64,000 nt of DNA, taken from positions 2,697,857 to 2,761,856 of the forward strand of contig OY725493.1 of NCBI GenBank assembly GCA_963281255.1. Reading direction: 5' to 3'. The number at the start of each line of letters is the position of its first letter. Within the stretch, counting starts at the first letter, position 1. The notes under the pieces are model-generated. The model did not search any database and was not told the DNA's origin. It saw nothing but the letters and a program-made list of their open reading frames with translations. The DNA comes from Aphrocallistes beatrix. Its lineage: Eukaryota > Porifera > Hexactinellida > Sceptrulophora > Aphrocallistidae. This document shows positions 1 to 48,389 of this stretch, piece by piece. Both the position numbers and the translations under genes were made by a program.

Positions 1-1288
1 TCTGTGCGTCTTTATACTGACAATTTAGAATATCTAGCATTGCGCTACCTAGGTCCCATACACGGGGGTAGGGAGCTCTGAAAAGGTGGGGCTGCCAGAG
101 AGTAATGAAAAAAAAATGGGCAGATGGAGCGAGCGACCGTAAGAGGGATCTGGGGGATTTGTCCCCAGAAAAAAATTGGGAATCCTAGGAATTAACATGG
201 CCGTGAGGTCCTGGAACCTGTGTACGTAGAATTAATAATTTCATTGATATTGAAGTGGTATATGACAAGAAATTACCATTAGCCTGGAGAGGCCATGCCT
301 AACATCTGGAATGAACTGGAACATCGCGGAATTAGGTATCTTTCGCGATCTTTCAGAATCTATGTACGTAACTAGAATTATATAAATAATCATTAATACA
401 TTTCATGGATAGGTCCATAACATTAGGTCATTACATCATAGATCAAGGAGTTGCATTAGAAAGGACATATCTTACCTTTGAAGGTAGGAGCATGTACATA
501 CTAGAAATGCTCGCCTATATGACCTGGCTAATTGTTTGTGGATATGCTCTCCTGTTCCTGATTCCACCGTATTCCCTATCTATTCAACCTATTCTGTAAA
601 CATAATAGCCATTTAGAGCTACCAATCCTGTGCATTTGCGAGAACATTATTAGTTCTGTTCTGTCCAAGTCAGCACTCGAAGCAATTACATATTCGCCCA
701 CTCGAACCTTTTGAACCGCGAGAAAACGATTACATGCGTTGACGAAATTAAATTGGCCTACGTGTCTGAATTTATAAAAGTACCAATGTTATGACGGGAT
801 ACTTTAGCAGTTGAATTGATAAAATGGAACATCTTATAACAATAGCATGGATTGAAGTCTATTATTCGATGCGAACAAGCTACTATTTGCATTTGCGAAT
901 TTAGTTCTTTAGAATTCAATAGGAATTTAAACGTCATAAGGTAGTGGATGGAATAAAGTTTATTCTCTAAAAAATGCATTTGCTCTTGTATCTCGACATA
1001 TGCAACCCTGATACTCCTAATAAAAGTAAATAAAACAAACAAACAAACAAATTGCAAATATAAAATTGATAATGTAATAATCCCTACTTCAAGAACGATT
1101 AAACATTCTCAGGAGCCACTATTGTTTTCTTGCAGAACATTAAAGGAGGTACCGAGGGCTTCATGACAACAAGAGTTCACTATTTATACATTGCATTAGA
1201 TTAAATTAAGTTAGGATATAATTCAAGTTTGTTCAAATTCTCTGAATGGAATTGAATCCACGATCCTTTGGTCAGCTCTGCATGGCTG
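1..1288. other. Gene-poor left edge
   Basis: I see no supportable gene here. Open frames at 405-599 (+) and 758-1057 (-) are short, AT-rich and resemble nothing I know. About 60-190 holds an inverted copy of a dispersed repeat that recurs near 1800-1900, recognisable by the shared GAGCGAGCGAC core and the tract of GATCTGGGG. Confidence 0.5.
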
Positions 1289-1597
1289 TTAGACATTTCC
1301 AGATATGATACTCACAGAACCTACACGGTCTCTTGGGATCAGTCGGAGGTTGCTTCCGTGCTTCAAGAAAACCATCGCCGCTTCTTGACTCGGATTGATC
1401 CCGATTCCATCCTCCGTAATGATGGCACTCGTCTCTGCATTCACTCTGAACTGCTCTGCAGAGAATCTAACCACGGCTGAGAACGGTGTGTTTTCAGGCA
1501 CCTTTAAGATCTTGAACGGAAGTCTCGGATCAGAAGTTAGCGTTATCTTGAATGTACATTGTTTCTTTTCCCGGCTTCCTGCTCCCTCTTTTGACAT
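1289..1597 (-). CDS. UFM1: Ubiquitin-fold modifier 1 (UFM1)
   Basis: UFM1 is the small ubiquitin-like protein attached to lysines by UBA5, UFC1 and UFL1, with a main role in ER-associated ribosome quality control. The single open frame encodes 102 residues. The core is almost the animal consensus: [14 protein letters not shown] near residue 16, [15 protein letters not shown]-type segment in the middle, and IPRDRVG near the C-terminus. Conjugation needs an exposed C-terminal Gly after VG; here that is Gly93. The N-terminus is about 10 residues longer than in vertebrates ([13 protein letters not shown]). After the Gly the frame runs nine more residues (SVSIISGNV) rather than the usual two. The DNA just after GGTTCT reads GTGAGTAT, a strong splice donor, so the real tail could be spliced to a very short last exon. 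Either way UFSP protease would trim the tail. Confidence 0.95.
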
Positions 1598-1660
1598 GCT
1601 CGCAAGCTAAACCGATTGTTAATATTACAAAAGTATAATTATATAATATAATTATATTAA

Positions 1661-1910
1661 TTTGGGGGGCGTTCAAACGTTACGTAACGCTTCAAGGGGA
1701 GGAGGGGTATAAGAGATTGTGGCATAGCGCGACGTAGGGAGGGGTGTCAGATCTGAGAATTTCAAAAAATATTACCAATAAGACAAAATACAATTTTTTT
1801 CTCAATGGGGAACACAAATAGCTGTCGATATTAAAACCTCTAGGATTTAAAAAATCTGGAGGCAAGCCCCAGATCCCCTTTACCGTCGCTCGCTCTTACC
1901 CACCGCAATG
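1661..1910. repeat. MITE-like dispersed repeat
   Basis: The segment opens with GGGGGGCGTTCAAACGTTA and a ACGTAACGC motif. A related copy lies at about 3105-3210, whose right end CGTTTGAACGTCCCC is the inverted complement of this start. That gives the family a terminal inverted repeat, typical of non-autonomous DNA transposons. The 1800-1900 part is related in inverted orientation to 60-190. Exact boundaries are not clear. Confidence 0.55.
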
Positions 1911-1999
1911 AAATGTTTAATTAAAATTCATACAATGTACAGTATAAGAAAATAAATTATGCACAAAAATCGTAATTTTATTCTATTCTATTTATTTAG

Positions 2000-2682
2000 G
2001 TTTGTCAAGTTCTTCCATTGAAAACTCAAGTGTAATATCAGAAAAGGAAACTTCTTTTTTATTCCTTTCCAATCCCATTTACTTGACACTGATTATCGTG
2101 GCTCTTCTTTTCACGTGTACGCTCATCCTCATCACAGTCATTATCAGTATTGCATGCATATGTGGCGCATGCCACAATAGCAAGGTAGCGTCAGAGGAGG
2201 TTTGCGCCAGCTCTTCACACAGAACGTCCCCTCTTTCCAACCCCCGATATTACACGGAACATAGAGAGTATACTAACAAGTCCGGGCTCTCTCCTGCTCC
2301 CTCCCTCCTGTCTCTAGTTCCGCACAGTACTAGATGTTCGAATGGACAGGTCGCTTGCTGTGTTACTGATTCTCAACATTCCTACGTTTCTATCCCAAAC
2401 AAACACCCGCCTTACCCTCATCATGTACGCTGTCCTTCCGATCAAGTGGGCTATCATTATGTATCTACGCCGCGAATTGATGCTCCATGCACTAGGTGCT
2501 GCCCCAGTGTTACTATGTCAGAACCCAGGATATCCACCTACTCACCTAGACTCGCACAGAAATGTACATCCAAGAAACACAGCCTGCCCGACAGGATAGA
2601 GGAGCCCCATCCTCTCACTATGGCGCAGTCCTGCGGTAACACAATGTACCGTCAGGCCTCTGTGGACCAGGTGGATGTTTGA
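2000..2682 (+). CDS. Last exon of a transmembrane protein, unrecognised
   Basis: An open frame of 226 codons follows a good acceptor (TTTATTTAG) and ends in TGA at 2680-2682; it lacks an ATG at its start, so it is the terminal exon of a gene whose upstream exons I cannot place. It shows a short Ser-rich segment, one strong hydrophobic span (about residues 24-54, YLTLIIVALLF and on to IACICGAC), then a cytoplasmic-type tail of about 170 residues rich in Ser, Pro, Cys and Tyr with repeated YVS motifs. The C-terminus QVDV fits a class II PDZ ligand. A AATAAA signal lies 325 bp downstream. I infer a single-pass receptor or adhesion protein; the family is unknown. If its upstream exons lie left of 1289, UFM1 would sit antisense inside an intron. 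Confidence 0.6.
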
Positions 2683-3006
2683 TCCCAGTCTGTTCTAAAC
2701 TCATTCAATCTTACCCTCTCACTTAGCATTTAGAATCCCTGACATTTTAAGCACATCCATTATTTCTCCTTTAAACTTTTTATTTTTGTCTTTCTAATAT
2801 TTTGTATTTTTTAATTTGATAGTATTTTGTATAAATTGTGAAATTTGATTTGGGATTAAGATTTTGATAAATTCTCAAGATTCTGGATAATAGTATTTCC
2901 TTCTTAACGCATCTTATAATTGCCCAGAAAACATTGATAATAACGACAATTTTTTAATCTTAATGAATTCCTTAGAGAATCTACTTTCAAATGGTCTGTT
3001 GTGATA

Positions 3007-3012
3007 AATAAA
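3007..3012 (+). terminator. Polyadenylation signal AATAAA
   Basis: AATAAA about 325 bp after the stop of the membrane-protein exon, with a TTTTTATTGTTG stretch following it. Assigned by position and orientation. Confidence 0.5.
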
Positions 3013-3059
3013 CATTTTTATTGTTGCACTCCATTATACTACACAAAAAATATTTTGAA

Positions 3060-3300
3060 ACCCTCAATATTGGGGATAAAACAAATTTGAAGCCTAATTA
3101 ATGGGAGTATAAGATAATGCGACATAGTGTGACGTAGGTAATACGTATGGAGGGAGGGATGTTGGATTTTAGAATTTCTGCGTTTTGCATCGTTTGAACG
3201 TCCCCAAATTCGTAGGGAATCTAATTCTTTTGGATTCCAAATTGTTAGCTCGCTCAGGAGCAGTGGTGGCGGCAGACATATTTTCTCGGGGGGGTCTAGA
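3060..3300. repeat. Second copy of the MITE-like repeat
   Basis: The stretch GACATAGTGTGACGTAGG at about 3120 matches GGCATAGCGCGACGTAGGG at about 1720, and the end CGTTTGAACGTCCCC mirrors the start of the copy at 1661. Small antisense frames at 3039-3402 fall inside this repeat and are not credible genes. The rest, to 3793, holds nothing I recognise. Confidence 0.5.
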
Positions 3301-3900
3301 TAAACATCTGACCGACGCTCCGTTCTTAAAATGACCAACAAAATAACCAATACTGGTCTTTTGAAATCTGATCATATCAACGTGCAGAAGAGGTTTGGAC
3401 ATTTCTTAAACTAAATTCATACCTCGAAATATCCACTGATGACTTTGACCTTTACATTTTTGTCACGTTTTTTCTTGAATATCTCAAAAATTATATGAGC
3501 TATCGAATCTTCATTATAAGCATACCTCTCTCCACCTCAGATGAAATAACAATAAATGCAAACTACGCCCCATGCTTAAGGAATATATGAAAACGGAATC
3601 AGAAAAGTTGATTTTATTATACTTCAGATTTTGTAGAGCAGTTAGATAATGTGAACAAGTTGGTTTGCTTAGACAGACAGATAAATTAGATGTGTTGGAG
3701 TTACATAGGACAGTGATTCTAGTAGTTTAGAGAAATTTCCGGGACTAGTGAATTCGACTGGGTCTGAAAATGTAGTTCCATTGAGTGCAGCTACAGTCTG
3801 TCCCGTAATTATTGAGAATCACCTAAGTACTAAAATGAATATCAATTATTCAATTCCAGTATAAAATTTTAAGCAGAATATTATTACATGTGTCTGATGA

Positions 3901-5225
3901 TCAGTAATTTATCTTGTTACCATTGCTGTCGATCACTTTTTGACACCTTTTCGGCATTGAAGACCAGTAAGGTTCCAAAAATTCCGGGGTTATGGAATCC
4001 CATATGACAGAAATCCGATCTTTAAGGTCTGATTTTGTTCTTGGTCGATCTCTACTAAGGTTATGCTTTATCCATCCGAATAGATTCTCTATTGGATTGA
4101 TATCAGGACTCTGACTAGGCCAACCAAAGGTGTTTTGAGGCATATTTTGCTGCATCCAATCCCTTGCCTTCTTACAAGTGTGTTTGGGATCATTATCCTG
4201 TACCAAAAACCAATTTCTTTCATGAAAAACATTTGCTTGCGCCAGTAAATGAACCTCTAGAATCTTCACAAAGAATTCACCGTTCATATTGTGTTCGAAA
4301 ATACAGAGTGGGAATGTCCCCATTGAAGAAAATCCGGCCCAAATATTGATCTTAGCACTATGCTTAACAGTGGGGGAAACTCTGAATTCACTATTCTTAG
4401 TCCACATCCTCACTGAGCCACTAAAAAGCCAAAAGGATGCTTCATCCGCGAAAATTGCTTGATTCCACGGTCTGTCTATATTAGTTCTTGCCCAATCTAG
4501 ACCTAGGTTGACTAATTCATGAATTAATGAATAATTCGAATAATTCATAATTCATCAAGCCTGAGAAGAATTATTCAAAATTGAATTTTTTGCAACAAAA
4601 TATCATGAATTATATGAATGAATTTTTCGAATAATTCTTAATTCAGGATTCTGAAACATTCGAATAATTCATATTTCCTGAATTATGAATAATTCCTAAT
4701 TCAGGAATTATGAACTATTCGAATTATTCATTAATTCATGAATTAGTCAACTTAGCTTATGATTGACTAATTCATGCTTGAATTATGAATTATTCGAATA
4801 TTTCATAATTCTTTGCCATTTTTTAATGAATTAGTCAACTTAGATCTAGAGTCTAGACGTTTAATACGATTTGTCTCAGACAACATGGGAACTTTCTTCG
4901 GAAAGGGCTTTGAATAATCCAACTTTTTAAGACAACGATGGACGCTTGTTTTGCTAGCTGAACAAGGTAACTTCGATGAAAATTCGCGAATGGAGACCTT
5001 TGGATCATCTCTGATTTGCTTAACCACACTTTTCTTAATCGCCTGATAGACTATAGCCGGTCTTCCTGCACCACGATGGTGATCCAGTGACTGTTGTTCT
5101 GAAATTCGGCGAATTACACGGCAGACTGTCGCTAAGGAAACGTCGAGTGCTCGGCTAATTTGTTTCGGGTTGTATATCTTTGAGGTCCACAGAGGGTTCG
5201 AATTTCATTCCTCTTTGAAACTTGA
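3901..5225 (-). pseudogene. Tc1-like transposase, interrupted
   Basis: Read on the minus strand, the N-terminal helix-turn-helix part lies at about 5225-4840 (SRALDVSLATVCRVI, then GRPAIVYQAI and VHRCLKKLDYSKPF), and the DDE catalytic part at 4516-3901 (FADEASFWL, QDNDPKHTCK, QSPDINPIENLFGW). The acidic residues of FADEAS, QDND and NPIEN are the expected D, D, E. The copy is inactive in appearance. An AT-rich palindromic insertion separates the two halves, and the frame shifts near 5190 between NEIRTL and LWTSKIYNP. Confidence 0.85.
4507..4835. repeat. Palindromic AT-rich insertion in the Tc1 transposase
   Basis: The segment consists of repeats of GAATAATTCGAATAATTC-like sequence. It opens with GTTGACTAATTCATGAATTA and is closed by the inverted complement at about 4718-4752, with a further partial copy to 4835. 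It splits the transposase reading frame, so it arrived after the Tc1 element. It is most likely a small palindromic MITE. Confidence 0.6.
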
Positions 5226-5405
5226 GACATCTCAATAACTAGTGTATCTAAGCTCTTTAGAAATTCACAACAAACATTAGTCAGATATTGCTAAGTAATG
5301 ATGACGCATCACATATTTTTGCATAATTTCAAAAAAATACCAAGTTTATACCATACTAATTATAGAAAAATATCCATCAAATAGAGGAATATCTAAGATT
5401 TAGAT

Positions 5406-5770
5406 CAGGGGTGGGCACAAAAGTTAGCTTTCGGGCCGCAGTGAAACTTTGAGCCGACTTGGCTGGCCACAAAATTTGAGAATGTTTTTGCTACCATGAA
5501 AAACGAACAAATACACATACAAGTACACACGTCTATAGAATTTAGGTGTGGAATAATAATTCAAGTGTATTTGCAATTAAATATGTACTTGGAGTACAAT
5601 ACCATTATAGAATTATAGACAGGGATTTATGAATGGAAAAATAAAATCTACTCCTCTCAAGTAAGGGCTAAAAGTGTCCTAGAAAATTCTTCGGGCCGCA
5701 TTCATGCCCTTTCCAAACGAACCCCACAGGGCGCATAAACTTAGCGAGCGGGCCGCACTTTGCCCACATG
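5406..5770. mobile_element. hAT-type MITE nested in Tc1
   Basis: This 365-bp insertion starts CAGGGGTGGGCACAAA and ends TTTGCCCACATG. Its termini carry inverted GGGCCGC-rich sequence. Perfect 8-bp duplications ATTTAGAT flank it at 5398-5405 and 5771-5778, the length expected of hAT elements. No coding capacity. Confidence 0.9.
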
Positions 5771-5951
5771 ATTTAGATGAATAGGTATTGAAATTTCGTT
5801 TCAAATACTAAGGATATTCAATTAACATTTTCTCAATAATTATGGGACAGACTGTATGTTAAATGATTTGAGTCATGTTCGTGAGAAAGCTGTTACTTGG
5901 ATGTCTAATCTTTACTATTAATTAATTAAAACTCGATTAATGTGTATGTAT

Positions 5952-7092
5952 CAGAGGTGCAGCGGTCTGGACTGGACTGCGGTCCAGACCGGTCCGGACC
6001 GGACCGACCGGTTTCAGCTCAGTCCGGTCCGCCTTTTTAAAGTTCGGTCTGGACTGGTCCGAATTAGCGATCTAACGGTCTGGACCGATTCATCGGTCTG
6101 GACCGAACAATCAGTCTGGACCGAACAATCGGTCTGGACTGGTCCACCGGTCTGGACCGATTCATCGGTCTGGACCGAACGATCCATCTGGACCGATTCA
6201 TCGGTCTGGACCGAACAATCCGTCTGGACCGATTCATCGGTCTGGACCGAACAATCGGTCTGGACTGGTCCACCGGTCTGGACCGAACAATCCGTCTGGA
6301 CCGATTCATCGGTCTGGACCGAACAATCCGTCTGGACCGATTCATCGGTCAGGACCGAACAATCCGTCTGGACCGATTCATCGGTCTGGACCGAACAATC
6401 GGTCTGGACTGGTCCACCGGTCTGGACCGAACAATCCGTCTGGACCGATTCATCGGTCTGGACCGAACAATCCGTCTGGACCGAATCATCGGGCTGAACC
6501 GATCCATCGTTTTGGACCGATTCAGCATCCTAGTATATCGGCAAAACGATCTATTACCCATTGTTATAATACAATAATTAAGTAAGCAATATCGGCATTT
6601 ACATAAATGTGTTTTTACACATTTATGTTAATGCCGACCGACTCCGGTCTGGACTGGACCGCGGTCCAGACCGGACCGACGGGTTTCAGCTCAGTCCGGT
6701 CCGAATTAGCGATATAACGGTCTGGACTGGACAATCGGTCTGGACCGATCCATCGGTCTGGACTGGTCCACCGGTCTGGACCGATCCATTGGTCTGGACT
6801 GGTCCACCGGTCTGGACCGATCCATCGGTCTGGACTGGTCCATCGGTCTGGACCGATCCATCGGTCTGGACTGGCCCATCGGTCTGGACTGGTCCACCGG
6901 TCTGGACCGATCCATCGGTCTGGACTGGTCCACCGGTCTGGACCGATCCATCGGTCTGGACTGGTCCATCGGTCTGGACTGATTCATCGGTCTGGACCGG
7001 TCCAATATTTTAATCGTGCAGTCTGGACCGTCTAGAGAATATATATGACGGTCCGGTCCGGTCCATGAAATCACCGGACCGCTGCATCTCTG
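5952..7092. mobile_element. hAT-like element filled with an 18-bp satellite
   Basis: Inverted ends CAGAGGTGCAGCGGTCTGG at the left and CGGACCGCTGCATCTCTG at the right, flanked by perfect 8-bp duplications GTATGTAT (5944-5951 and 7093-7100), define a 1141-bp hAT-type non-autonomous element. Almost all its interior is a tandem satellite of about 18 bp with the motif CGGTCTGGACCGATTCAT and variants. It falls in two blocks (about 5955-6545 and 6640-7085) that start with the same leader (GCGGTCCAGACCGG, TTTCAGCTCAGTCCGGTCCG), so the interior has itself been duplicated. An AT-rich spacer with a TACACATTTATG-type hairpin separates the blocks. Long open frames on both strands (WTDSSVWTEQ, RPMNRSR) are translation artefacts of the repeat. 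Confidence 0.88.
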
Positions 7093-7103
7093 GTATGTAT
7101 GTA

Positions 7104-7624
7104 TCCTTACTATTAAAACTCGATTATTAATCCATATACTATATACGTATATCTGTAACGAATTCATTGAAGAAACTGCCAGGCACAGAAAGATCATTTT
7201 TGGCATGTGGGGGTCTTTTGGCTATGGCTCCACTAAGTTCTGAGTTCAGACCAAAATGTCGACTCATCATGGAATTGTGACGTCATTGTCACCTTTTTAT
7301 AATTAGAAATTTCAGTTTTTCGACTATAACTCAGCTATTTTAGGCGATAGAAGGCTGAAATTTTAATATAATGTGTATATTAATATACCTTACATATGAT
7401 ACAACTATCATCCAAAAATGATCATCATTCTGTTATGACGTCATCATTACGCATCAAAAAATTTAAAAAATTGACAAATTTGGTGATTTTTCGTGCGATA
7501 CCGATTATAACAGTAGTACAGACGTATTTAGAGATGTTATCCCCCTTACAATTAATCAATGTGACCCCAGGCGGACACAAAGTGTCCGCCAGCCGCGCAG
7601 CGGAAGCACGAGAAGCGCGCTTGT
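7104..7624 (+). mobile_element. Helitron-like repeat, family 1
   Basis: It starts TCCTTACTATTAAAACTCGA and runs through conserved text (GAAGAAACTGCCAGGCACAG, GACTCATCATGGAATTGTGA) to a GC-rich terminal hairpin (TGTCCGCCAGCCGCGCAGCG, then AAGCGCGCTTG). The same structure recurs at 30040-30593 and several times at 58.1-61.2 kb, on both strands. A TC start, GC-rich 3' hairpin and lack of target duplication suggest a non-autonomous Helitron or Helentron; the end does not show the standard CTRR, so the class is tentative. Confidence 0.6.
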
Positions 7625-7723
7625 TATACTTAAAATTGAATATAACATTTAGAAAAGTGCGCTAATCAAGTACTAGGGATAAATATAGTAATTACTGTTT
7701 ACATAATATTCATATAACAAAAA

Positions 7724-7899
7724 GTACGGAGAGCATGCTCCTTAGGTACGGAGAGCATGCTCCTTAGGTACGGAGAGCATGCTCCTTAGGTACGGAGAGC
7801 ATGCTCCTTAGGTACGGAGAGCATGCTCCTTAGGTACGGAGAGCATGCTCCTTAGGTACGGAGAGCATGCTCCTTAAGTACGGAGAGCATGCTCCTTAG
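7724..7899 (+). repeat. Left array: eight 22-bp palindromic units
   Basis: Eight near-identical 22-bp units run without spacers, each GTACGGAGAG followed by CATGCTCCTTAG. The centre GAGCATGCTC is a perfect 10-bp palindrome. Palindrome starts are at 7731, 7753, 7775, 7797, 7819, 7841, 7863 and 7885. The absence of unique spacers rules out a CRISPR array. These look like multimerised sites for a dimeric DNA-binding protein. Confidence 0.95.
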
Positions 7900-8443
7900 A
7901 AGTACAAAGAACAACTTCTTAAAAGTACGGAGCGCATAATAAATTATTATTAATTAACTTCATAGAAGTGCTGTGAGCGCACTTAGAAAGTAGGAAATGC
8001 GAGCTATGCAATCAAATAACTACGTATTTAATTTCAAGGAGTACTATTTCAATGAAGTTTGTTTAGATATCATTCTTATATTTTATCAGGAAATTAAGAT
8101 TAATAAAAAAAATATCGGCGCTTCTAGGGATGTCTGGATTAATTATGCTTACATATCCGCGCAATAAGGTACATTTTTGTTAGGAGTTTCGTAGCTAGCC
8201 TAGTTGTGTTTCCGCAAGTGTGAACAAACCCACCCAAGTAGATTAGTATGTTATTCAATTTAAATAGGCCTTTAGTACTATTAGTTTATAATGCATCTCT
8301 TAATTAATAATTAAAATAGCTATTCTTGTCAGTTAACTTGCATAAATTATCTATGTATACGAGTGTGTTTACAAACTTTCTTAATTCTCAAATAAACTTT
8401 TCAATACTTGACATGCCCAACATACTTGTATGTAAATACAGCT

Positions 8444-9051
8444 ATGCCGCGAGTGACGAAATCTAACGCGCGTCAACACTTGCAGAATGCTCTGGAATTG
8501 TTCTCCAAAGTCACAGGAGAGGCTATAGGGGCAACTTTCACTTGGAACGGGCAAGTGAATGTCTTCGGAGCAGAACCTTTTAAGGAGTTTGCATCGAAGC
8601 ACAAAGAGGAGGTGTGGCAGGCCTTGATATCTTCAGTTCACCGATCGGGGCGAGTAAACGAACCCTTGACCAAACCTGATCAGGATAGAAATGATCTAAG
8701 GTTACTTTCAGAAGGGAATTTTTCTACTCTAAGTGTTCCTATTCTTCGCAAACTGGTGGTTCTAGTCACGCAGCGATCTATCGGCAAGTTTTAAATATTT
8801 TCTGAAATGTATTTTTAGCCTAACGAAGGGCTCGTAATAGCCATTACGTAATTATTTCAGAGCCTTAACAGATATTATTTTTTGTTTCAGGTCGGAAACG
8901 ATTTTTCTGGGGGAATTCGACTCTCAAACCGAACTGGTGGCCAAATAAATACCCTTTTAGTAATGTCAGAAATTCCAAGGCTAATGTTTTAGTGGCAATA
9001 CTTAACGCGTATAAGGGTATTGAGCTCCTTGAAGAGTATTCCGAGACATAG
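8444..9051 (+). CDS. NRF1/EWG-like DNA-binding-domain protein
   Basis: Two exons, 8444-8783 and 8891-9051, join in phase across a probable GC-AG intron (donor G|GCAAGT, acceptor TTGTTTCAG). The protein of about 166 residues matches the DNA-binding region of animal NRF1 (Drosophila EWG) in order: VNVFGAEPFKEF plus a Lys-rich helix like NRF1's VFGAAPLE region; a helix LRKLVVLVTQRSIGRK like the one before NRF1's GWG; then WGNSTLKPNWWP, PFSNVRN, and a final helix ending ELLEEY like NRF1's REDLL. It stops there, without NRF1's long activation domain. NRF1 is a nuclear factor binding GCGCATGCGC as a dimer. The flanking arrays offer GAGCATGCTC. I infer a sequence-specific DNA-binding protein of the element, acting as repressor, activator or part of the transposition complex. 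A cryptic acceptor just before the ATG leaves an upstream exon possible. Confidence 0.72.
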
Positions 9052-10752
9052 TCATTAGTTCGCTGTATTCATATAGTAATGAATAATGGACGAAATAGTG
9101 GTTGTCTATGTTAAGAAGCAAATCAGATGATCCATCATAGACGGCGAAACATCTACATTTACCAGTGCAAGTCCCATTGAATACTAAATATATGAAGAAT
9201 TAAAACATAATATACTGCAAGTTTATTATAAATCAATTAGTAACAGTACCTTGATGGCCTGCTAATGAAATTACATCACTATCAGTGTATATAATGATTC
9301 CTTTCGCTGAACGTGCTGGCTTTAGATCACGAAATGGATAACCATTGACACAGTTCATTTTTTCAGGCTTAATATCATAAGGTAATTGAAGCCCATACTT
9401 CAGCTGATTATCATAGACACTGGAAAGATTATCATCAAGGCGTATTGGAATTGGGGTACGAGAAATTGATTCATATTTCTGTTCACTATAGTCTCCACAA
9501 TTAGGTATAGAAAGCGGTAACATTTCTAGAAATGACGATTTAAGGTTACAGGGCTTTATGCATGTTCTGCAAAACCAATTGCCTTCCTATCGGAAATAAT
9601 TAAGATTATGTATAATAATATATCTTATATATTAAAACGCAATGGTTTTTTGTTTTTTTTATGTTTTTTTGTTTGTGCAGAATTGATTGAGGAACTGGGA
9701 GGTGCTAGAAATGTGAAATTTGGCACACAGATAAATAATAATGAGTCTATGATTAAGTTTGAAGATCTAAGCGAAATTTTCACATCTCTGCAAAAATAAT
9801 GGAAGACAATTTTTCATACCTTTTCTATACAATATATATGGCTTCACTTTCACTATAGATATCATTGTGCGACACCTCAATAGACTATTGTTATTAATAC
9901 TTCAAAGAAATGACGTATGTGGATATCTTAATTTCCCTGCTATGCAAGTGCGCGAAGCGTGCTTTGTAAAAAATTAAACCAACCGTAAATTTATGTTATA
10001 ATTATTAATAACTTCTAGTTACCTTGCAATTGAAAAGGTGAAAAGTAGAAGCGTCGGCTAATATTGCAGAATTTTCAGTCAAAAAGTGAATATCAAATCC
10101 TGCATGGTTTTTCGCATCAACCTCTTGAAATAAATGATCATCAATTGCTAGCTGGGCGGCTTTAGCATGTAGACACTGCTTATCTCTGCATGCTGTACAT
10201 AGTAATGAATCGATTATTACAATTGTAGACGGACAGAGGGTTCGTTTCTCTAAATGAATGAAAACAAAATTGATTCTACTTGATCGTAAATAAATAAAAA
10301 TATTTTCAAAGAAAATAAATACCTTCATCGTCTACATAATCACACATAGCTATTATCCGTGTATTTGTCAATTTCCATAATTTTCCATTATGGAGAAGAG
10401 AATGTATATATCGATCAACAGGTGAGAGATTTAGAATATGCAGAGCCATTCCATGATCTGCATTGGCCTGAGGTCCATCACAGTCGTATGGAAGCTCGTC
10501 TATTAAATAATTTAACTTAGTACTATCTGCCCTGTTTCTAACTTAGTTTCTGCTATACAGATGCTGAAAATGTTTTTAATATGCATATTACGAATACAAC
10601 TTACGGATAGTTGATGGATAGTCTGATTTACTTATTGAAAAGTCTTCTATTTGGAGTTGAGAGAGAGATAGTTCTTCTGTACGCCTCCTTTTACTTGAGA
10701 CAGGTGCAAGTTCAGTCAGATGTACTTTATCAGCTCCTCGATTATTCGACAT
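9002..10752 (-). CDS. Spliced Cys-rich transposon protein (KDZ-like zinc-binding part?)
   Basis: Minus-strand exons: 10752-10603 (starts MSNNRGADKV, with SSKRRR as a likely nuclear signal), about 10508-10327, about 10240-10022 with LCTACRDKQCLHA, a C-x2-C-x4-C-x-H zinc-binding pattern, 9566-9250 with CIKPC, and 9183-9002 with GTCTGKCRCFAVYDGSSDLL. Most junctions keep phase; the join between the third and fourth exons needs a second acceptor about 10 bp downstream (ATAAAG|CCC) or a missed exon, and a Helitron-like insertion lies in that intron. The Cys pattern followed by YDG..DLLLN..N resembles N-terminal zinc-binding parts of KDZ-type (Zisupton/Dileera) transposases; that is recollection, not a search. 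No catalytic core follows. The last exon overlaps the end of the NRF1-like gene tail to tail by about 50 bp. Confidence 0.5.
9621..9972 (+). mobile_element. Helitron-like repeat, family 2, short copy
   Basis: It begins TCTTATATATTAAAACGC, continues GAATTGATTGAGGAACTGGG and ends at a GCGCGAAGCGTGCTT hairpin. A longer relative lies at 15790-16710. It sits in an intron of the minus-strand cassette gene, so it is younger than the cassette. Confidence 0.6.
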
Positions 10753-10819
10753 TACAAATAAGTATTATACTTATAAAATAAAACAGTTTGCGACAGTTAT
10801 TCACTTCATCTATTTATGT

Positions 10820-10955
10820 GGTTGGTGGTTGTGATACTTGTGAACTTCTAAAACCAAGACATATTTTATGTGGTTTCTAAACAAGTGCTGTTTGGAAACC
10901 ACATAATATATATCTTGGTCATAGTAGTTTATAACAGCTTCACAACCACTATAGC
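10820..10955. repeat. Hairpin-forming inverted repeat
   Basis: GGTTGTGATACTTGTGAA, CCAAGACATATTTTATGTGG on the left is mirrored by CCACATAATATATATCTTGG and CTTCACAACCACTATAG on the right. It lies just upstream of the start of the minus-strand cassette gene, so it may be part of its promoter or a small fold-back element. Confidence 0.55.
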
Positions 10956-11090
10956 GGTAAGGTATTGATTATAGGGCATGCAAATTCTTTACCACATCTT
11001 AAAAATTCCATTATACCAGAAATGCAGTTATCGTTACATAAAGTGAAAACGATTTTAAAATATTATATTGACTAGTACTACAATATATAA

Positions 11091-11277
11091 TTCTAAGGAG
11101 CATGCTCTCCGTACTTCTAAGGAGCATGCTCTCTGTACTTCTAAGGAGCATGCTCTCCGTACTTCTAAGGAGCATGCTCTCTGTACTTCTAAGGAGCATG
11201 CTCTCCGTACCTAAGGAGCATGCTCTCCGTACCTAAGGAGCATGCTCTCCGTACCTAAAGAGCATGCTCTCCGTACT
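11091..11277 (-). repeat. Right array: eight inverted palindromic units
   Basis: Eight units of GGAGCATGCTCTCCGTAC stand in opposite orientation to the left array. The inner five are spaced by 24 bp (TTCTAAGG...), the outer three by 22 bp (CTAAGG or CTAAAG). Copy number equals the left array, but spacing and a C/T variant (TCTGTAC in two units) differ, so the arms are not simply a recent copy of each other. Confidence 0.93.
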
Positions 11278-11485
11278 TTTTGTTACCTCCAATTTCAGGG
11301 TTTTAATTTAACAACAGATTTAAGGAATATAATTGGTTAACATGGAATAGACACAACTCAATACACATAAACTTTTGCGCGCCAAGTAAAAATATTTCAT
11401 AACATGGCGCAGAACAATATTACTATTTCGCCGACTAGAATTTTGTAGTGGTCCATTTTTGCATATCCAGCCAATTACTATCAAC

Positions 11486-13710: not shown

Positions 13711-13875
13711 CAGTCACACCTCACGAAGCATTCTGATCAGTTTTTAGTGCGTGTATACAGCTAGTGACTTACTTTAGTGCTTTTGTGTATTTCCGCTTTT
13801 GTAAATAGAGAAGTTATACGTATTAAGATTATCTGATCTCTGTAGTAGAATTGATTTGACTGGGAATGGGAGGTA

Positions 13876-14934
13876 TTGAAAAGTCCAGGGCACATGTGCC
13901 TTGGCCCTTGGGTCCAGGACACATGTGTCTTGGGTCCAGAGCACATGTGCCTAGGGTCCAGAGCACATGTGCCTTTATAAAGTCCAGAGCACATACATGC
14001 ATACACTCTAAGTGCATATATTAAAAAGTACATTGCGCATCATCAATCGGTACATTGCGGATGATCAATTGAGAATTGACCTAATTGAAAATAGAATTGA
14101 GACAATCGAGTTATTTTAGGGAGGAATACAATCCCAATGGTGGAGAAGGGAGGCTTTATGGGATCCACAGCTTGGCTTGAGGCAGTTTAGTTAAATATTG
14201 GATTGATAAATGGATCGAAATGAGGCTTTTTTCCGCGAAACGCCCCCAGTAGAGATACAATTTAATGCAGTGTGGTGGTTTTAGCGACATTAATTTAGAC
14301 TACGGTTTTTCATATATAGAAATGTGTTAAGCGATTTTCACGTATGTGCATACGCAATGGACTTTTTAATACCTCCCAAGTCCAAGTGACCAGCTAAATG
14401 TTGGTTTGTCCAGCATTTTTGGTACAAAACCAGTTGACCAGGAAAGTGTTTTGACTCATTATGACCAGTAGGCTATCTATTGCATAATATCATTGCGAGA
14501 GCATTGATCTAGTTTAGCTTTTTGATAATTTATCAAATCAGTTGTTGCTGCCATCTTATATTTGAAATGTGGTAAGGCCAAATAGTAGTTTTGCAATAAC
14601 TATAATACAAATTATACGTAAAAGTGCTAAATGTTGTATCTTCCAAACCGCTTCTTCAGGCACTGCATTTACTTGTAGATTTCAACATGATTATACTAAC
14701 CAAAATATTAGAAACATAACATTTTTAGGTTTATTGATTGTCTAAAATATAAGATGATAGATTTTTACTGTTTATCACACTGCTTAAAGCAATCAAACCT
14801 GCAAGTATAATTATTGATAAGTGGTGGCAGAAAAGGACCAGCGTTTGAACACTCAATAAGTTGGGACCTATGTATGATACATGCACTCTGGAGTCTGGAC
14901 TTTAATAAAGGCACATGTGCTCTGGACTTTTCAA
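13876..14934. mobile_element. TA-flanked element with CACATGTG palindromic ends
   Basis: Inverted ends TTGAAAAGTCCAG and CTGGACTTTTCAA with TA on both outer sides (13874-13875, 14935-14936). The left end has four tandem units of about 20-30 bp, each with GTCCAG and a CACATGTG palindrome (13884-13998); the right end has one such unit (14905-14930). I find no coding region inside. The design, TA duplication plus palindrome-bearing subterminal repeats, is like the cassette at 7717-11283 but with a different palindrome, an E-box. Confidence 0.65.
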
Positions 14935-14936
14935 TA

Positions 14937-15789
14937 TATGGGGAATGGAGTGTATCCTTTTTCTATACAAATAGGTACGGATTCCTTCAGATTCCCAAGA
15001 TTGTTTCAATTCGGATAAATAAAAAATCGGAACTTTTCAATATATAAGACCATGGAAGCTTGCTCATTGGGATGAATTTCTAGAAACAATTGCCAATATA
15101 CATATTAAGCTCATCAATGTAGTATGGTTAATGAAGACAAAAATCTGATTGTAGAATAGTCCAGGGTTGGCAAGTTTTGTCAAGTGGAAAAAACCGCCCT
15201 GTCCAAAACCTCTTGACTGGACTAAACTCAAATACTACTACGAATTGAACCCTGAGCCGGCTGAAATATATGTAAGATATTCAGAAATAAGTTTTAGTGG
15301 AATCGCGCTTTTTATGAAATTAACTCATAAATAATTTCGAATTAAAACAATCGGGTATAAGAAAGTTTTTTGTGAGTCATAAGATAAAAAGCACTTTGAA
15401 TTTTGGATATAAGAAAGTCATTCAAAATAATGGTTCTATACTATACAAGTGTACTACATTTTATTCTACAAAAGTTTATTTATTATTTTTGATGATGAAG
15501 TCCCGAATATCTGCCTGAATTTGATTTCCTATTGCATTGTTAGCTTTACCTTAGGGTATTTCTGGTTTCAAACTCACATCCATCGTTGCGTTTTTGTAGA
15601 TACGGTAGGCTTCGGATATAATAAACACATTTAGTGAAATCGTAAACTTATATCCACTCCGAACCCAACTGTATTTAACACTAGTGCATATTTCAGTATG
15701 CAAAAATAATCCAAATAATCCAAATGAAAAAAAGTTTAAGGAAGAGTTTTATATGATACTTGCAAAAAATCTTGATACCCAAAGATGAA
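14937..15789. other. Intergenic, nothing identified
   Basis: AT-rich sequence without a credible gene. A short TCCAGGGTTGGCAAGTTTTG motif near 15160 could be the end of a degraded hAT element, but I find no partner end. Confidence 0.4.

Positions 15790-27866: not shown

Positions 27867-48389
<20,523 letters not shown>

Follow-up and report, generated by a model that had tools for sequence, protein, structure and literature searches.

The window, as we call the whole 64,000-nucleotide stretch of Aphrocallistes beatrix DNA analysed here, comes from a eukaryotic assembly of 100.5 Mb in 28 contigs (labelled C1, C2 etc.) and contains, at positions 7711-11289, a mobile element with parts of two genes, one of them encoding a protein that resembles the transcription factor NRF1/EWG in its DNA-binding region. 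This unit arose by internal deletion from a KDZ-type DNA transposon that carries two genes and has a full length of ~6.76 kb. The window copy was compared with six others (L021-L026; L numbers denote genomic loci), and the termini common to copies are CATATAACAAAAAGTACGG...CCGTACTTTTTGTTACCTC. The initial annotation had recognised a unit bounded by inverted repeats, and inverted terminal arrays are indeed present, but it had placed the limits at 7717..11283 with TA as flanking sequence; since the common termini are longer, the element spans 7711-11289 and the TA falls inside it. The features of the window copy are as follows.

7711..11289, no strand: whole element, internally deleted KDZ-type transposon copy, 3579 bp (termini common to other copies; blastn against six copies)
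7724..7899, plus strand: left terminal array, 8 x 22 bp, palindrome GAGCATGCTC in each unit
8444..8783, plus strand: NRF1-like gene exon 1, dimerisation-domain-like part and helix with the R206-equivalent
8891..9051, plus strand: NRF1-like gene exon 2, WG..KP.WWP / NVR part
9025..9026, no strand: internal deletion junction, ~3.25 kb lost (compared with L021 2187-5436)
9026..9183, minus strand: transposase exon 5, cut by the deletion (full-copy gene model, as for exons 1-4)
9250..9586, minus strand: transposase exon 4
10023..10249, minus strand: transposase exon 3
10323..10526, minus strand: transposase exon 2
10605..10752, minus strand: transposase exon 1
11091..11278, minus strand: right terminal array, 8 units of 22-24 bp, inverted relative to the left array

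The element and its full-length copies

Both ends are in place in five copies, and four of these (L021, L022, L023 and L025) are flanked by matching 7-bp sequences (ACAGTAC, ATAGCTT, AAATATG and AATATTC), while the window copy has no such duplication. L024 is rearranged, and in L026 the standard left end is missing. Identity in the matching blocks is 99.6-99.9% for the window copy, L021, L022, L023 and L025 (100% for one L025 block) and 96.7-99.6% for L026 and L024; the 99.6-99.9% identity between copies points to recent activity of the family. An eighth, degenerate relative (74%) lies at C8:1648373. Further copies with the same ends are therefore present, and the unit is not single copy in this genome.

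The full element at L021 measures 6764 bp (894-7657). Gene models, spliced by eye and by script, were built for four copies (L021, L022, L023 and L026). They comprise two convergent genes: a minus-strand gene of 8 exons encoding a 799-amino-acid transposase, and a plus-strand gene encoding a protein of 514 amino acids, in which NRF1-like dimerisation and DNA-binding regions are followed by an Ulp1-like region and a PHD finger. Both frames are open in L023 only among the four copies modelled; the plus-strand gene is broken in L021 and L022, and the transposase gene in L026. The spliced L023 transposase matches the KDZ domain (PF18758) at 30.7 bits (cut-off 26.6, E=3.2e-7) and CxC4, the KDZ-associated cysteine cluster, at 26.0 bits (cut-off 26.9, E=9e-6), and candidate motifs such as FDG, YDN and CEQ are present in its sequence. 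Taken exon by exon, the genome yields six KDZ matches, none above the cut-off, and single L081 transposase exons likewise score below it (23.0 and 14.5 bits).

Fold assignments for the 514-residue protein rest on sequence profiles. The L023 protein matches Nrf1_DNA-bind at 29.9 bits (E=5.8e-7, cut-off 23.5) and PHD at 22.3 bits (E=1.3e-4), under the cut-off of 24, and Peptidase_C48 scores 14.8-17 bits in the window family (14.8 for L023), under the cut-off of 20.7. This weak C48 call is backed by L038, where PHD (32.4 bits) and C48 (24.1 bits) both exceed their cut-offs, and by a profile built from eight pieces of last exons, which retrieves H3-reading PHDs (5e-11) and an Ulp1-like SUMO protease (4e-5) from the PDB. 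The HW, Y(D/N)S, Q.Q.G and DCG blocks of the Ulp1/C48 type are aligned in the eight pieces, with the H replaced in L048. Elsewhere, C48 reaches 19.0 bits in L079, under 20.7, and is not listed for L043.

In the window copy, the deletion has removed the rest of the NRF1-like/Ulp1/PHD gene and the catalytic exons of the transposase, exons 6-8 being gone. Exon 2 of the NRF1-like gene crosses the junction and acquires a short new tail ending in LLEEYSET; the intron before it (8783/8891) is of the GC-AG type, with an identical junction in the full copies. The spliced 166-residue protein exceeds the Pfam Nrf1_DNA-bind cut-off (36.4 versus 23.5 bits, E=5.9e-9), confirming the domain originally proposed, and its first 160 residues joined to the full-copy tail match human NRF1 (PDB 8k4l) with E=5.7e-6. 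That this protein stops after its DNA-binding domain, as had been noted, is true of the window copy because of the loss of ~3.25 kb at 9025/9026; in full copies, the Ulp1-like and PHD parts follow. The idea of a mobile cassette built around the NRF1-like domain holds as regards mobility, given the copies, the target-site duplications in four of five and the KDZ transposase. The stand-alone cassette does not: the unit is a deletion product of a two-gene element whose minus-strand transposase exons the initial annotation had overlooked. The window copy retains no more than the DNA-binding half and the front portion of the transposase, and it is presumably incapable of moving alone. Speculatively, its 166-residue fragment, if expressed, could act like a repressor form by competing for ends.

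NRF1-like genes and transposases across the genome

Profile searches of the genome returned 118 NRF1-like rows and 123 transposase rows; the transposase search scored 104 of 161 candidates, so that the counts are lower bounds. Co-occurrence was computed from 68 of the 118 NRF1-like rows (the rows dropped were weaker ones, that of the host gene and many for second exons) and from 52 of the 123 transposase rows, one row a locus. An NRF1-like cluster lies within 10 kb of 36 of the 52 transposase loci, where 0.65 would be expected by chance, and the two are convergent in 35 of these 36. Seen from the other side, the 63 NRF1-like clusters include 35 with a transposase no more than 10 kb away. Four families besides the window family show the gene pair bracketed by arrays (one far end, that of L084, was read as sequence). 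The link between NRF1-like gene and transposase is systematic in this genome, and no one-off capture.

All eight families run passed the Pfam NRF1 cut-off (PF10491) with 25.8-43.4 bits; the test used spliced domains and did not include those of L041, L042, L048 and L058. Several families also show weak Pfam matches, mainly in the exon-2 half, to PF11001, a fungal YDR124W-like helical bundle (E 0.025-0.12), which may be a distant relative of the NRF1 DNA-binding fold. The profile made from the eight element domains retrieves human NRF1 (E=2.2e-13) and host NRF1 (E=4.6e-9), the best of 1000 shuffled sequences reaching E=0.37, and the similarity runs in the same order across the dimerisation and DNA-binding regions. 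The host genome gives one full-length NRF1 match, at C1:8494049 (E=1.3e-47). In a tree of the two NRF1 proteins and the eight element domains, unrooted and computed from a short alignment, host and human NRF1 form a pair (support 100/100) that a long branch separates from the elements. Lying outside this pair, the element domains are not orthologues of animal NRF1 as far as the unrooted tree goes, and recent capture from the host is unlikely; capture from the present host NRF1, which we considered, is disfavoured by this tree. The comparison with the host gene that had been suggested thus separates host from elements; as an unrooted tree, it is compatible with capture as well as with derivation. 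Two scans of viral contigs for homologues gave no confirmed relative.

The human NRF1 structure paper names R206, N242 and R244 as the base-contacting residues: in the dimer bound to GCGCATGCGC, the central TG is read by R206 and the outer bases by N242 and R244 (PMC10810270). The R206-equivalent is found in 10 of 10 exon-1 sequences long enough to reach this residue. By the element alignment, the N242-equivalent is kept in seven of eight families and the R244-equivalent in two of eight. A simple residue-to-motif code is not supported, as the R244-equivalent fails to predict the motif.

Palindromes and fixed geometry of the element ends

At the left end of the window element GTACGGAGAGCATGCTCCTTAG occurs eight times, with eight inverted repeats at the right end, and GAGCATGCTC is found 16 times in the window versus 0.06 expected. 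Similar arrays occur in other families. In 7 of 11 family groups (the grouping is our own), a CATG-centred palindrome is repeated in the terminal region, mostly every 22 bp even though the spacer sequences differ. The repeated palindrome is GAGCATGCTC in the window family, GATCATGATC in the group of L061, L073, L075 and L074, GCACATGTGC in L080 and AAGCATGCTT in L039; since GATCATGATC is common to all four of its loci, these are not independent. Three groups (L040/L043, L081 and L079) carry the exact NRF1 consensus GCGCATGCGC at their ends. Single CATG sites are found in the L041 and L077 groups and none within the last 900 bp in L037 and L038/L076, L076 having ACACATGTGT farther upstream. In the upstream regions listed, the repeated sites precede the start codon of the NRF1-like gene by ~85-774 bp, with some farther away in L066 and L076. 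Regions upstream of NRF1-like genes were viewed at 24 loci, 14 of which, the window family excluded, were chosen after viewing; these 14 hold 55 10-bp palindromes with a CATG core, the next of the 16 cores, TATA, reaching 11, and in 8 of the 14 one CATG palindrome is repeated at least twice.

We then aligned 13 ends at their termini (CAT.. or GAGGTA..), which we chose by eye. In 11 of the 13, the start of the first perfect CATG palindrome lies at a distance of exactly 20 bp from the terminus; in L079 the distance is 21 bp, and L037 lacks the palindrome. The 20-bp distance recurs with different palindromes, and both ends of the window element show it. In the L081 element, whose target-site duplication is CAAAAAAA, the far end has four exact TGCGCATGCGCA-type sites, arranged as a mirror image. 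The window itself contains another example.

13870..14940, no strand: second, short non-autonomous relative, ends GAGGTATTGAAAAGTCCAG...CTGGACTTTTCAATATATG

This second element has GCACATGTGC 20 bp inside both ends; its target-site duplication, the 8-bp GGGAATGG, is perfect and occupies 13862-13869 and 14941-14948.

Genome-wide, tandem pairs with 9-15 bp between sites number 144 for GCGCATGCGC, 129 for GATCATGATC and 1545 for GAGCATGCTC, and 0 for each reversed control. Among the matches listed, many arrays lie away from listed genes and are presumably non-autonomous copies. Several of the first 50 of the 1545 GAGCATGCTC pairs form two arrays ~500 bp apart (e.g. C1:728356-728924), a pattern that suggests a numerous family of short non-autonomous elements. 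Arrays of GCGCATGCGC whose spacer is different, for instance CTCACCGACGAG, were seen at C4:5307448, C4:5313128, C2:1125624 and C3:2070724, the two on C4 being inverse and 5.7 kb apart; no NRF1-like or transposase match is listed near them, and they possibly represent a further element family. L037 has AATT-centred ACAATTGT repeats farther upstream. In the window, tandem repeats of 36 bp (6078-6524) and 18 bp (6718-7004) lie directly left of the element, and the minus strand carries, at 3901-4551 and 40011-40655, transposase fragments matching DDE_3 and Transposase_1, which we take to be Tc1/mariner-like.

Predicted role and origin of the NRF1-like protein

We consider it probable, from the sequence, that with the NRF1-like protein the element supplies the factor that binds its own ends. 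As a homodimer, the NRF1-like part of this protein would bind the CATG-centred palindromes, which recur about every two helical turns at both ends, and the bound protein would mark the ends for the transposase, either by recruiting it or by pairing the ends. Since the arrays lie outside both genes, which are read towards the interior of the element, the protein would probably also control the element's own promoters. The Ulp1-like and PHD parts could remove SUMO marks and read histone H3 at the element or its target, allowing escape from silencing or the choice of open chromatin. VANC of VANDAL transposons provides the model for an alternative, that the protein acts mainly in anti-silencing or as a transcription factor, outside the transposition complex. 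The position of the repeated sites upstream of the NRF1-like start codon would suit such a role, as would the start of both genes from array-bearing ends, the nature of NRF1 itself as a promoter activator and the presence of Ulp1 and PHD domains fit for chromatin work. What speaks against it is the first site: in 11 of 13 ends its distance to the terminus is a constant 20 bp, with mirror-image placement at the two ends, as expected of transposition-complex sites. We rate this alternative as clearly below an even chance; it is compatible with the end-binding reading and does not exclude it.

Several observations weigh against the prediction of an end-binding factor. Sixteen of the 52 transposase loci have no listed NRF1-like neighbour and 28 of the 63 NRF1-like clusters no listed transposase neighbour. 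The window copy has mismatched flanks (TAATATT / CAATTTC) and no target-site duplication, and may therefore stem from recombination or an aberrant event. Within the last 900 bp, no perfect CATG palindrome was found in L076, L037 and L058 and only one in L041, L077 and L074, and the two copies each in L079 and L080 equal the largest count of 200 shuffles. L037 (C2:2028967), the strongest NRF1 Pfam match (43.4 bits), is thus among those without a CATG palindrome at the end. The R244-equivalent is variable, and L040 and L047 have T there yet possess exact NRF1 sites. Exon 1 alone gives E=0.067 against host NRF1 in a profile-profile comparison. Finally, human NRF1 binds the window-family core (ATGaGCATGCtCAT) weakly (Table 2 of PMC10810270), so that altered specificity must be assumed.

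How the elements and NRF1 came to share a domain can be explained in more than one way. Low identity to human NRF1, modest Pfam scores (25.8-43.4 bits) and the exon-1 value just given might indicate convergence or a weak-profile artefact. We hold this to be very improbable, as the curated cut-off was passed separately by all eight families run, the similarity extends in order over both regions where shuffles fail to match, and the terminal sites of three groups equal the NRF1 consensus. The elements could instead have captured the domain from an animal host long ago, the shared GCGCATGCGC site coming along with it. NRF1 is an old, conserved animal gene, which favours such a capture, as do the host-gene captures reported for DNA transposons, e.g. 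TET/JBP in KDZ and other elements (PMC12730594). Set against this are the diversity of the element domains and their place apart from host and human NRF1 together, and ancient capture alone would leave the family-specific palindromes unexplained; we regard it as plausible, if somewhat short of an even chance. The converse, that host NRF1 derives from the DNA-binding protein of a KDZ element, draws on the exact NRF1 consensus at the own ends of three family groups and on the wide diversity of element domains compared with a single host gene, and is held back by the unrooted tree and by a comparison confined to the host genome and human, with no other phyla; to this, too, we would grant nearly an even chance. 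NRF1-like ends on NRF1-like transposons hint at a shared origin of NRF1 and the elements. More tentatively, animal NRF1/EWG may have been domesticated from a DNA-binding protein of this KDZ lineage, with GCGCATGCGC as the ancestral terminal repeat and NRF1 promoter sites partly seeded by elements.

Among known systems, two-component plant transposons such as En/Spm, with TnpA and its subterminal repeats, and VANDAL, with the anti-silencing protein VANC, likewise encode an accessory DNA-binding protein and contain arrays of the sites it binds, but their domains and transposases are unrelated to those described here. On its sequence, the element is a KDZ-type transposon that we do not file as Kyakuja. 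It resembles KDZ elements in a transposase domain above the cut-off, a cysteine-cluster match just under it, a multi-exon transposase, and duplications of 7 bp in the window family and 8 bp in the second window element, PMC12730594 giving 7 bp for Kyakuja and 8 bp for Zisupton. Two features set it apart from them: the long arrays, inverted between the ends and made up of palindromic repeats of ~22 bp, and a second gene whose product has an NRF1-like DNA-binding region. That paper describes Kyakuja of Laccaria with CA..TG ends and no inverted repeats, whereas the ends here are CA..TC (CATATAAC...GTTACCTC) with inverted repeats. KDZ transposons with accessory genes are already known, and the fungal TET/JBP-carrying transposons, KDZ and others, share with ours an accessory gene related to chromatin biology, there an enzyme, here an NRF1-like DNA-binding factor (PMC12730594). 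With NRF1/EWG/P3A2 the element protein shares the order of dimerisation-like and DNA-binding regions, the R206- and mostly the N242-equivalents, and CATG-centred palindromic sites, including exact GCGCATGCGC in three family groups; it is unlike them in being transposon-encoded and fused to Ulp1-like and PHD parts, in its variable R244-equivalent and in the other palindromes found elsewhere.

NRF1 is a master activator of many genes, mitochondrial ones among them. Literature titles and abstracts yielded no link between NRF1/EWG and a transposase or KDZ element (the original KDZ/Zisupton papers and Repbase being outside this scope). One listed paper, PMC8122590, mentions Nrf1_DNA-bind for an ascidian. 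Within the literature searched, these elements are the first mobile relatives of NRF1, and they form a large, diverse and recently active family. The DNA-binding mode of NRF1 is called novel in its structure paper (PMC10810270), and the element families offer natural protein-site pairs for reading the NRF1 recognition code. The origin of NRF1 becomes testable by a rooted tree and, if domestication is true, NRF1 promoter sites could partly have been seeded by such elements.

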